From: Fibrisoma montanum
Lineage (GTDB): Bacteria > Bacteroidota > Bacteroidia > Cytophagales > Spirosomataceae
Reading direction: 5' to 3'
NCBI RefSeq assembly: GCF_003583365.1
Contig: NZ_QXED01000001.1
Location: forward strand, 868,001-932,000
DNA length: 64,000 bases
Positions 49,066-52,946 of this stretch are shown here, in pieces (the stretch's first letter is position 1; each line of letters opens with the position of its first letter). The notes below the pieces were generated by a model. It searched no databases and was not told where the DNA came from. It saw only the letters and a list, made by a program, of their open reading frames with translations. The position numbers and the translations under genes were made by a program.

Positions 49066-49872
49066 TTCTTGTTTTACCCAGGCCGGTACGTCCTGCTCAA
49101 TGGCACGGCGGACTTTAGCAACCAGATCGTCGACGGTATCGTCGGGGCTTACTTGAAGCGGCTCCTTAAAGCGGATGGTCAGCAACGTGTTCCGTTTCTT
49201 AAAGCGCAGGCCTTTCTTGTCAAACGCCCGCCGGAATCCGTTGATCACCACGGGAATCACGATTGGATCATTGTTTTTAATGAGGTAGCCCGTTCCTTTA
49301 CGGATGGGTGCGTAGGGACTCGTTGTACCCTGCGGAAAACTCACAACCCAGCCGTGGGCAAGCGCACTGGCGATTTTGTCGTTCGCCGATGTATCCACCT
49401 CCCGCTTTACTTCCCGGCCATCGGCCCGCCACGACCGCTCGATGGTGAGGGCGCCGGCCTGCGCCAGCACCCGGGGCACAAACCCTTTCTTCATGGTTTC
49501 GGAAGCGGCTACGTAGTACTGCCGGGCCCGGGGGCCAAACAGATACATAGGGGGCAGCAACGTATTCTTAAAGCCCCACTTCACCGCGCAGAAAACGTGG
49601 AAGAACGCAATAACGTCGGCAAAGTACGTCTGGTGATTCGATAAGAACAGGACGTTATTGATTGGCAGGTTTTCCAGATGCTCGGTACCCTCAATCTGAA
49701 TGCGGTTCACAACGGTGTAGCGGGCGTAGGTCAGCCAGCCGACAATGCCGATCAGCATACGTCGGATCAGGAGCGAATTGCCGAAGGGGTCGCATTCAAA
49801 CAGGCCGAGTACATCCAGTGGTGCCAGGAATTTTGGCAGATAACTGTATTTAGTTGGTTGAATGTATTTCAT
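49063..49872 (-). CDS. 1-acyl-sn-glycerol-3-phosphate acyltransferase family protein
   Basis: A 269-residue PlsC-type acyltransferase. The catalytic NHx4D motif is in VLFLSNHQTYFADVIAFFHV, and the second block FPQGTTS corresponds to the EGTR substrate motif with Gln in place of Glu. GYLIKNNDPIVIPVVINGF is the third conserved block. It transfers an acyl chain in membrane lipid synthesis, probably to a lysophospholipid or similar acceptor. I took ATG 49872; 15 further codons upstream lack a family match. Separate from the neighbouring genes by terminators. Confidence 0.88.
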   Translation of the reverse strand: MKYIQPTKYSYLPKFLAPLDVLGLFECDPFGNSLLIRRMLIGIVGWLTYARYTVVNRIQIEGTEHLENLPINNVLFLSNHQTYFADVIAFFHVFCAVKWGFKNTLLPPMYLFGPRARQYYVAASETMKKGFVPRVLAQAGALTIERSWRADGREVKREVDTSANDKIASALAHGWVVSFPQGTTSPYAPIRKGTGYLIKNNDPIVIPVVINGFRRAFDKKGLRFKKRNTLLTIRFKEPLQVSPDDTVDDLVAKVRRAIEQDVPAWVKQE

Positions 49873-49959
49873 CACGGTTAGGGTCGCGCAACCAGTAAAG
49901 CTACAAAACCGCTTCAATGTTTTCGGGAAAAAATCCTACAGACAAGAGCGCAAATAAAA

Positions 49960-50013: not shown

Positions 50014-50814
50014 TCAGACCATTTCCGGCGTTGGTATGGTGATTTGCTGATGGACGCTATCCCACAGCGCGATACGGGTGCGCAAGGCAGCTTCCACCGC
50101 CTGAGCGGCTTCTTCCCAGCGTTGTGGATCCTGCCCGCAAAGTTCGGCCGTCATGGCTTTGGCCAGGTGCGAGTGGTGGTCGCCATCCACTTCAATATGG
50201 CGTTCGAGGTAGTACGTAAACAGCGCCAGTTGTTCGGGCGATTGTTCGCGGAGCTGCCGGACCAGCGCGATGAACATGTCCGGAATCAGGTCTTCCCGGC
50301 CGAACGTGAACACGGCTGCAATCTCGTGCAGCTTTCCATGGCCGAGCAGATCGAACGTAAAGCCTACAAAAGCGCGGCTACCTTCGGGCAGTTCGGCGTT
50401 GTCCAGCGCATCCTGCACCGAGCGTCTGTCCGTAAGCTCGTCGATAAAGCGCTGAATGGCCCCCGTACCGGCTCCGGCCTGCCGCATGGCCTTCAGATAC
50501 AATTCGAAGTGGCTTAACCGATTGCCATCAGGGTCTACGTCGCTTTCTTCGCCGACTACAATCTCGTTGATCAGGTAGCGAGTTTCCGGATTGCCGACCG
50601 GCAGCCAGGGCACATCTATGCAGGTCAGGTCACGCTGAAGTTTTTTCAGGAGCGACATGAAGTCCCAGACAGCCCAGACGTGCGACTCCATGAAGACGCG
50701 CAAGCCGGACAAATCCCGGACAGATTCATATAGTGGGTGAGCTACAAGCTGCTGCCGCAGGGGCTCAATTCGTTCTGAAAGCCTGATTAACTGCTCGTTA
50801 TGAGTGGGTTGCAT
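50014..50814 (-). CDS. DUF3050 protein (possible heme-oxygenase-like metalloenzyme)
   Basis: A 266-residue cytoplasmic protein recognised as DUF3050 by HPLYESVRDLSGLRVFMESH, VWAVWDFMSLLKKLQRDLTC and YLINEIVVGEESDVDP. It is all helical. Conserved acidic and histidine residues (EEsD, SHFELY, ERHIEVDGDHH) are spaced like the metal ligands of heme-oxygenase-like diiron proteins. No function is established that I know of. The start is ATG 50814; the longer reading begins with TTG. Single gene with its own terminator. Confidence 0.85.
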   Translation of the reverse strand: MQPTHNEQLIRLSERIEPLRQQLVAHPLYESVRDLSGLRVFMESHVWAVWDFMSLLKKLQRDLTCIDVPWLPVGNPETRYLINEIVVGEESDVDPDGNRLSHFELYLKAMRQAGAGTGAIQRFIDELTDRRSVQDALDNAELPEGSRAFVGFTFDLLGHGKLHEIAAVFTFGREDLIPDMFIALVRQLREQSPEQLALFTYYLERHIEVDGDHHSHLAKAMTAELCGQDPQRWEEAAQAVEAALRTRIALWDSVHQQITIPTPEMV

Positions 50815-50940
50815 ATTTTTTTTGATGTTGGTTAATCTTTTCAAGTAACGCCATGTCTAACTAACAAGTTTGCACAAAAAGACCAGTTGACTGCCTATTG
50901 CCGACGTTCTACGCTCCCACTATCGGGTTTTAACAACTAA

Positions 50941-51648
50941 ATGAATACAACCAACACCATGAAACGAATTTTGCTTGCTGGAGCCGTCGCGTTTGGTTTA
51001 TTGACTGCTCAAACGTCTTTTGCTCAGGTGCAGATCGGCATCCGGGGCGGTGCGAACTGGGGCTTTGCCTCAAAACCGGAGTTCCTTGGCAATCTGACCC
51101 CTACGCTGCATCCCTCACCCGGACCGATGGGAGCCCTGTTCCTGGACATTCCGGTGAGTGAGCGGGTATCGTTCCGTCCGGAGATCGGCTACGTACAGAA
51201 AGGCTTTGTCGTGAAAGAAGGCCTCGACCTCAACCTGGGTGGTTTTGAACTGCCGATTGGCGCTCGTATCTCGTACCAGTCGCGGAACCTCGACGTACCA
51301 CTGCTGTTGAAAGTGAACCTGAGCGACGGCGCAGTTCAGCCTTACCTGATTGCCGGCCCATCGGTAGGTTACGCCCTGAACGGACGCGTCCGGACGCGGG
51401 CAACGGCGCTGTTTACCACGAAGCCATTCGACGTGGATATAAATTACGGCGGAGGCATGAACCGCTGGGACATTAGTGGTGTCGGCGGACTTGGTCTGGC
51501 TTTTGATGCCGGGGCGGGTAAGTTTTTTGTCGAAGGACGTTACACCCACGGTTTCACCCGGCAGGTACAGACGCCGGTCGTGAACGTAAACGTCCGGAAC
51601 CGGGGCATTGGCGTATCGCTGGGCTACTCGTTCCCAATCGGTTATTAA
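50941..51648 (+). CDS. Outer-membrane beta-barrel protein (porin family)
   Basis: A 235-residue exported protein; signal peptide ends TSFAQ (an ATG at 50959 is equally good). The mature chain is strand-rich with alternating hydrophobics: VQIGIRGGANWGFASKPEFL, VSFRPEIGYVQKGFVVKEGL, ARISYQSRNLDVPLLLKVNL, QPYLIAGPSVGYALNG and KFFVEGRYTHGFTRQ, ending GIGVSLGYSFPIGY. This fits the outer-membrane barrel superfamily PF13568, common in Bacteroidota. Function unknown. Confidence 0.78.
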   Translation: MNTTNTMKRILLAGAVAFGLLTAQTSFAQVQIGIRGGANWGFASKPEFLGNLTPTLHPSPGPMGALFLDIPVSERVSFRPEIGYVQKGFVVKEGLDLNLGGFELPIGARISYQSRNLDVPLLLKVNLSDGAVQPYLIAGPSVGYALNGRVRTRATALFTTKPFDVDINYGGGMNRWDISGVGGLGLAFDAGAGKFFVEGRYTHGFTRQVQTPVVNVNVRNRGIGVSLGYSFPIGY

Positions 51649-51911: not shown

Positions 51912-52946
51912 ATGAACCGGTTGACCAACTTTGTCTATTCTACGGCATCCGAACCTCACCGCATCCGGACCCGCCAAATCCTGAAAGCTCACCCCGACTT
52001 AAAAAAACTGATTGGCCAGAAAAACCCCACTACGTTCTGGGTCATTCTGGGTTGTGTATCCCTGATGGTGGCGATGGCCTACCTCGTGCGCGATCAGTCG
52101 TGGTGGGTTGTCGTGGCCGCGGCCTGGTTTATCGGTGCTTTTCCGGCGCATACACTGTTTGTCTGCATTCACGAAGCCGCCCACAACCTGATTTTCCGGA
52201 TACCGTCGCATAACACCTGGGCGGGCATTTTCGCAAACCTGCCGACTGTATTCCCTACGGCTATCTCGTTTAAAAACTTCCACCTCAAGCACCACTCGTT
52301 CCAGGGTATTCATGAACTGGATGCCGATCTGCCCGACTGGTACGAAGCTCGGCTGATCAACAACTACGCAATCGGGAAGGCCATCTGGCTGCTGCTGTTC
52401 CCAATCTTTCAGGGCATTCGGACGATCCGGTGCCGCGAACTGGCCGTAATCGACAAATGGGTCATTGCCAATCTGGTGGTTCAACTGGTATTCGATGTCC
52501 TGGTGGTCGCGCTGCTGGGCTGGAAAGCTCTGGCTTTCCTGACGCTCTGCCTGTTTTTTTCGGTGGGTTTGCATCCGCTGGGTGCCCGCTGGATTCAGGA
52601 GCATTATCTGACGCTCGATCCGAATCAGGAAACGTACAGTTATTACGGTCAGTTGAATGGGGTTAACCTGAACGTCGGCTACCACAACGAACACCATGAT
52701 TTTCCGTCTATTCCTTGGAATAAGCTTCCGGAAATCAAAGCCAAAGCCCCTGAGTTTTATGATACGTTGAAGTACCACACGTCGTACGTCCGGCTGTTCT
52801 TCCGCTTCTTGTTCGACCAGGAGATTTCGCTGTTTTCGCGCATTGTTCGGAAAGACCGGGGCCGTGTATCGCTCATCGACGAGTCGAAGCCGGATCTGGA
52901 ACTTGTGCAATCGCAGGCCATTCACTCGAATACCGCAGCGGTCTAG
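51912..52946 (+). CDS. Fatty acid desaturase resembling sphingolipid delta-4 desaturases (DEGS)
   Basis: A 344-residue membrane desaturase. Three histidine boxes are present: CIHEAAHNLIF (H87, H91), FHLKHHSF (124-128) and YHNEHHDFP (258-262). Beyond the boxes the sequence follows the eukaryotic dihydroceramide delta-4 desaturase pattern: an early HPDLKKLIGQ, FANLPTVFPTAISFKNFHLK, ADLPDW, GLHPLGARWIQEHY, ETYSYYGQLNGVNLNVGYHN. Four or more hydrophobic segments are visible. It should insert a double bond in a ceramide or similar chain using a diiron centre. The substrate is inferred from resemblance. It has its own promoter region and a strong terminator, with no operon partner. Confidence 0.88.
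   Translation: MNRLTNFVYSTASEPHRIRTRQILKAHPDLKKLIGQKNPTTFWVILGCVSLMVAMAYLVRDQSWWVVVAAAWFIGAFPAHTLFVCIHEAAHNLIFRIPSHNTWAGIFANLPTVFPTAISFKNFHLKHHSFQGIHELDADLPDWYEARLINNYAIGKAIWLLLFPIFQGIRTIRCRELAVIDKWVIANLVVQLVFDVLVVALLGWKALAFLTLCLFFSVGLHPLGARWIQEHYLTLDPNQETYSYYGQLNGVNLNVGYHNEHHDFPSIPWNKLPEIKAKAPEFYDTLKYHTSYVRLFFRFLFDQEISLFSRIVRKDRGRVSLIDESKPDLELVQSQAIHSNTAAV

Follow-up and report, generated by a model that had tools for sequence, protein, structure and literature searches.

The desaturase gene analysed here, in a 64,000-nucleotide stretch of the Fibrisoma montanum genome (the window), encodes, by curated profile, a member of the DEGS (sphingolipid delta-4 desaturase) family, and its most likely role in this organism, to which we give about an even chance, is the desaturation of N-acyl-capnine to a delta-4-unsaturated sulfonolipid. 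We infer the catalytic activity, the position of the bond and the sulfonolipid substrate from sequence, and N-acyl-capnine is preferred as substrate because the genome yielded no match for the enzyme that opens the ceramide route; unsaturated ceramides are less likely in F. montanum than unsaturated sulfonolipids. The gene and the elements of its product, all on the forward strand, are as follows:

51912..52946, forward strand: gene of the DEGS-family desaturase, 344 amino acids, ATG start (open reading frame, Pfam)
51924..52019, forward strand: Lipid_DES (PF08557) N-terminal region, residues 5-36 (Pfam, 41.7 bits, cut-off 23)
52170..52184, forward strand: histidine box 1, HEAAH, residues 87-91 (alignment)
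52281..52295, forward strand: histidine box 2, HLKHH, residues 124-128 (alignment)
52683..52697, forward strand: histidine box 3, HNEHH, residues 258-262 (alignment)

The open reading frame is intact, and its product combines an FA_desaturase domain (PF00487, 94 bits against a cut-off of 29.7) with Lipid_DES, which marks the N-terminus of sphingolipid delta-4 desaturases. When the query was aligned with 19 bacterial relatives, the histidines of all three boxes were invariant in all 20 sequences, and both domain features taken to mark the DEGS family, PF08557 above its cut-off and PF00487 with three histidine boxes, are present. The NCBIfam profiles returned just two matches to the desaturase, both far under their cut-offs (CrtW, 28.6 against 350; GntB, 21.2 against 380). 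Alignment with human DEGS1, for which an unverified sequence was used, covered 318 residues with 37% identity (216 bits). An earlier note on this DNA had claimed a DEGS-type match running the length of the protein, and the match is real, being borne out by both Pfam domains, the three boxes and the collinear alignment; the four phrases it quoted were located in the translation at residues 27, 107, 219 and 240. The query shares these features with eukaryotic DEGS1/DES1 but is bacterial, does not have the N-terminal MG, and comes from a genome with a cysteate fatty acyltransferase (CFAT) in which serine palmitoyltransferase (SPT) was not found; in eukaryotic DEGS1 the N-terminal MG is the myristoylation site. 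Five FA_desaturase matches, one of them the query, are present in the genome of F. montanum; the query aligned with none of the four other PF00487 proteins at more than 30 bits. Because of this dissimilarity and of the PF08557 match, an ordinary bacterial acyl desaturase was set aside as the simplest reading of the gene.

PF08557 was found in at least 40 of the 395 sampled genomes of the phylum Bacteroidota (own genome counted; a lower bound, many genomes having been scored with 18 first-look candidates only) and in none of 14 well-known control genomes in the same search, so that the match in the query exceeds chance. Among near relatives it was present in 11 of 39 genomes, that of F. montanum included. 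By this profile the DEGS family is not rare in Bacteroidota, at least one genome in ten of those sampled having it. Scanning named genomes gave at least 596 matching stretches, of which at least 581 are relatives; the best 80 of these 581 or more include Fibrisoma, Spirosoma, Fibrella, Arcicella, Pseudarcicella and Aquirufa, as well as Hymenobacter, Mucilaginibacter, Chitinophaga, Ferruginibacter and Saprospiraceae MAGs, and the closest among the matches listed is Fibrisoma limi (97%).

In a quick tree of 67 rows, with the four other desaturases of F. montanum as outgroup and the unverified human sequence as the single eukaryotic one, the query fell inside a 33-row group (98 SH-aLRT). Nested within this group was a further one (98 SH-aLRT), formed by L094 and the desaturases of six relatives in which the gene lies in an operon with SPT. 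This human sequence, the one eukaryote in the tree, joined four bacterial f37 sequences (99 SH-aLRT, with a long-branch warning), and it is 48-49% identical to L016. The eukaryotic enzyme may branch within bacterial DEGS diversity, as one part of a joint reading with bacterial delta-4 ceramides and sulfonolipids; a transfer between bacteria and eukaryotes, a further guess of the earlier note, may have run in either direction. The desaturase of L130, a record titled Thermoanaerobaculia, clustered with the Bacteroidota operon sequences; the same genome carries a second desaturase of the family (L195:685-1680, reverse strand), whose Lipid_DES match is stronger, at 62.4 bits.

A PDB sequence search with the desaturase gave no match at a threshold of 0.001. 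Its predicted structure (mean pLDDT 81.2, pTM 0.83) had two PDB fold matches at E <0.001, both chains of FtsHi motor complexes, followed by AlkB and stearoyl-CoA desaturase at E 0.025-0.17; six viral fold matches below 0.001 were mostly to named desaturases of giant viruses, with 12-15% identity. These fold matches to a predicted model support superfamily membership only. An origin from a mobile element or phage was considered and rejected, there being no match among phages or plasmids and no relative among 25 viral-contig pattern matches.

Pathway genes were searched for around 85 desaturase loci (the best 80 of at least 581 relatives, and five more) by blastp on open reading frames and, for five pathway genes, by tblastn at E 1e-20. 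Both methods detected SPT in the flank at the same six loci (L088, L089, L090, L096, L099 and L130), whose desaturases are 63-70% identical to the query. In all six, an FA_hydroxylase, SPT, a GNAT protein, an epimerase-type reductase and the desaturase are encoded on one strand; in L089 and L130 the desaturase comes before the reductase, in the other four operons after it. In L089 adjacent operon genes overlap by a few bases, the four partners of the desaturase match PF04116, PF00155, PF00583 and PF01370, and the SPT, at 647, clears the NCBIfam equivalog cut-off of 640. The operon is followed by a myo-inositol-phosphate synthase gene in L099 and by a PgpA-like gene in L089 (both by Pfam), and open reading frames in L088, L090, L096 and L130 resemble the L099 synthase by their starts alone; genes of these two kinds are described as part of the inositol-sphingolipid cluster of B. 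thetaiotaomicron (PMC9246714). From their place in the operon and from two Caulobacter genes described in PMC11324152, the GNAT protein is a putative N-acyltransferase and the epimerase-type protein a putative ketoreductase. The family reads as one of ceramide-type C4 desaturases because a block with the predicted make-up of a ceramide pathway surrounds the gene in these six relatives, and the block supports such a function. At the other 79 of the 85 loci none of the five pathway genes was found in the flank by tblastn at E 1e-20 (17 of the 85 loci span less than 15 kb), and at the same threshold CFAT was found in none of the 85 flanks. Because CFAT is absent from all these flanks and 79 of them are without pathway genes, the link of the desaturase to sulfonolipids is one of co-presence only. 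The Bacteroidota SPT-GNAT-epimerase block, which holds the desaturase in the six relatives, also occurs without desaturase or hydroxylase, in L203 (Mucilaginibacter), L204 (Chitinophaga) and L201 (from the family of the query); in F. montanum the desaturase gene lies separately, and no SPT was detected.

The genome of F. montanum, given as 99.98% complete, encodes an SPT-like enzyme (L041) that matches structure 7u7h with 591.6 bits and 28eh, a structure named cysteate-C-fatty acyltransferase, with 576.8 bits, against 230.8 bits to the SPT structure 3a2b. We infer that 7u7h is SulA from two mentions of 7U7H in PMC9304779 and from the residue numbering. L041 carries the equivalent of SulA Lys281 (YAKALPM), a residue whose role is described in the same article, whereas the four Bacteroidota SPTs compared show FSASMTP at this position. 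With both its best match to solved CFATs and the Lys281 equivalent in place, L041 is, by sequence, a CFAT, the starter enzyme of sulfonolipid (capnine) synthesis. A search of the own genome with an SPT query at E 1e-80 returned nothing (five of eight candidates scored), and with a second SPT query at E 1e-60, all ten candidates being scored, the sole match was the CFAT (241.5 bits). PF00155 matches number 22 in the genome; a locus is available for 20, and three that are alpha-oxoamine-synthase-like were followed. An SPT hidden among the 20 aminotransferases with a locus was rejected, since L041 is the CFAT, L040 is BioF-like and adjoins a BioA-like gene, and L047 is weak. This last (L158:7916-8983, reverse strand) is a short, divergent alpha-oxoamine-synthase-like protein with 69 bits to SPT. 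Also encoded is a GNAT protein (G000:C11:1327920-1329026; L202:6876-8090) that is 27% identical to the ceramide-operon GNAT protein; a match to the operon type at E 1e-20 was present in 35 of 39 relatives, and the protein is a possible capnine N-acyltransferase. The earlier note had proposed to look for SPT and had named missing sphingolipid synthesis genes as evidence against its reading, and this is largely what was found: no SPT was detected in a 99.98%-complete genome, and the SPT-like gene is a CFAT. Its suggestion of unsaturated ceramides gains from the relatives with ceramide operons and loses in the own genome, where only CFAT was detected.

Within the family of the query, CFAT was found in all 25 genomes and SPT (>530 bits) in two (G023 and G024), both without the desaturase; SPT was found in none of the 11 desaturase-bearing genomes. 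Of fifty desaturase-bearing genomes drawn from the best 80 of at least 581 relatives, thirty show no SPT (23 of the Spirosoma/Arcicella group and 7 of Hymenobacter), their highest score on the SPT profile being 355 where 640 is required; CFAT is present in every one of the 30. Among the remaining 20, the SPT cut-off is exceeded in 16, and four have an SPT-like gene with a lower score: three reach 639.3, 633.7 and 606.1, the 606.1 match being confined to part of the profile, and Xanthocytophaga has 472. CFAT is missing from two of the 50 (L094 and L118), both with SPT, many of the 50 being MAGs without stated completeness. In the phylum sample, the class of the query (counts that take in its family and order) includes 15 desaturase-bearing genomes, all with CFAT and eight also with SPT. 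Viewed from the side of the pathways, the desaturase is carried by 8 of the 10 class genomes that have SPT as well as CFAT (five of these eight belonging to one genus), by 7 of 81 with CFAT and without SPT, and by none of 7 with SPT and without CFAT. The 50-genome and class counts therefore show that the desaturase accompanies either pathway, and its higher frequency where SPT accompanies CFAT favours a link to ceramides. Beyond the class, CFAT together with an SPT-like enzyme was found in eight genomes that carry the desaturase (f37), and an SPT-like enzyme but no CFAT in another 17 (f30, f48 and f56), absences in the phylum sample being softer than those in the family and the 50 genomes, as many genomes had only part of their first-look candidates scored. 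SPT-like matches outside the class scored 370-425 bits; four of the sequences were inspected, and for one of them the best NCBIfam family was SPT (500.6, under the cut-off of 640). Since a match to CFAT or of SPT-like type turned up in 381 of the 395 genomes, co-occurrence across the phylum as a whole is uninformative. On a tree of 62 rows, 43 of which were labelled, the SPT versus CFAT-only state requires three changes.

A glycosphingolipid has been reported from Flectobacillus major (PMC5155239), yet a search of one Flectobacillus MAG and three Arcicella genomes gave no SPT; sphingoid lipids may therefore be made by another route in genomes without a recognisable SPT. It is rather unlikely, in our estimate, that the enzyme of F. 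montanum too is a dihydroceramide delta-4 desaturase, its ceramides coming from a relaxed CFAT, an unrecognised SPT or uptake from outside. The six relatives with ceramide operons, the class counts (8 of 10 against 7 of 81), the Flectobacillus lipid and the extra protein L047 speak for it, but the characterised CFAT, SulA, is described in PMC9304779 as cysteate-specific. Nor was SPT found in the own genome.

DEGS enzymes bind a di-iron centre through their histidine boxes and, with O2 and donor-supplied electrons, strip hydrogens from the C4 and C5 positions of N-acyl sphinganine. The query would likewise be a membrane di-iron desaturase of this family, whose substrates in Bacteroidota would be 2-amino-3-hydroxy lipids with an N-acyl group and whose reaction would give the long-chain base a C4=C5 double bond. 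The substrate would be dihydroceramide in SPT-bearing lineages and, in F. montanum, N-acyl-capnine, the sulfonate analogue of ceramide. In capnine a sulfonate replaces the C1 hydroxyl (PMC5591296, PMC9304779, PMC3463246), and because the backbone is otherwise alike, the same C4/C5 chemistry on N-acyl-capnine is plausible by analogy. For the family as a whole we tentatively propose that it makes true delta-4 ceramides via complete operons in some Bacteroidota lineages and delta-4 sulfonolipids in SPT-free ones, with the eukaryotic enzyme perhaps branching within it.

Members of the DEGS family hydroxylate as well as desaturate, DEGS2 being in part a C4-hydroxylase. An enzyme of this kind, which would form phyto-type bases on a ceramide or a capnine backbone, would agree with the sequence features examined, since these do not separate the two activities, but no analysis that was run gave positive evidence for it, and we regard it as improbable. 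The same low standing is given to the desaturation of an acyl chain in an ordinary glycerolipid or ornithine-type lipid, the likeness to DEGS being then merely ancestral. The 79 of 85 loci without the searched ceramide or sulfonolipid genes in the flank would suit such a role, as would a PlsC-like acyltransferase encoded upstream, with two genes between, and syntenic in 14 loci; against it stand the Lipid_DES match, the nesting of the ceramide-operon relatives in the clade of the query, and the distance of the four other desaturases of the genome. The PlsC-like acyltransferase (49066-49917, reverse strand) and an outer-membrane beta-barrel protein (50941-51645, forward strand) lie near the desaturase gene and are kept in 14 Spirosoma, Fibrella and Fibrisoma loci (L055-L068, among the best 80 of at least 581 compared), which may be plain synteny. 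A DUF3050 protein is encoded nearby as well (50017-50844, reverse strand); in the same best 80 of at least 581, it recurs at six other loci (L081, L084, L085, L086, L091 and L093) and, among the Spirosoma-group loci L055-L068, at L055 only. Hydroxylation of an amide-linked fatty acid, the step for which the predicted DesA-family desaturase/hydroxylase CC_0202 of Caulobacter is described as responsible (PMC11324152), is very improbable here, as PF08557 was found in none of the 14 controls, Caulobacter vibrioides included, and the six operons have a separate hydroxylase (PF04116 tested in L089 only).

Desaturation of N-acyl-capnine would add a step to the known sulfonolipid pathway, CapA/CapB (SulA, CFAT)/CapC, with which the genome of F. 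montanum has CFAT in common; no desaturase step is described in the available portions of PMC9304779, PMC11211663 and PMC10191378. No paper on a bacterial DEGS was found in the open-licence literature searched. According to PMC12724326, bacterial sphingolipids are generally simple, largely for want of the glycosyltransferases and desaturases needed for higher-order forms, while the same source mentions a d18:1/24:1 ceramide in Sphingobacterium detergens. A DEGS family present in at least one tenth of the sampled phylum, sometimes in putative ceramide operons, runs counter to the view that such desaturases are absent and supplies a candidate gene; it also offers bacterial enzymes for a family without a PDB sequence match at a threshold of 0.001. 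The family occurs in more genomes, and its reading as a ceramide-type one has more support, than the earlier note could know, but its substrate in F. montanum is probably a sulfonolipid. Delta-4-unsaturated sulfonolipids, if the reading is true, would be a so far undescribed lipid class. Lipids of the capnine type signal to eukaryotes, RIF-1 inducing rosettes in choanoflagellates (PMC3463246), and an unsaturated capnine series would, if true, widen the known chemistry of such signals.
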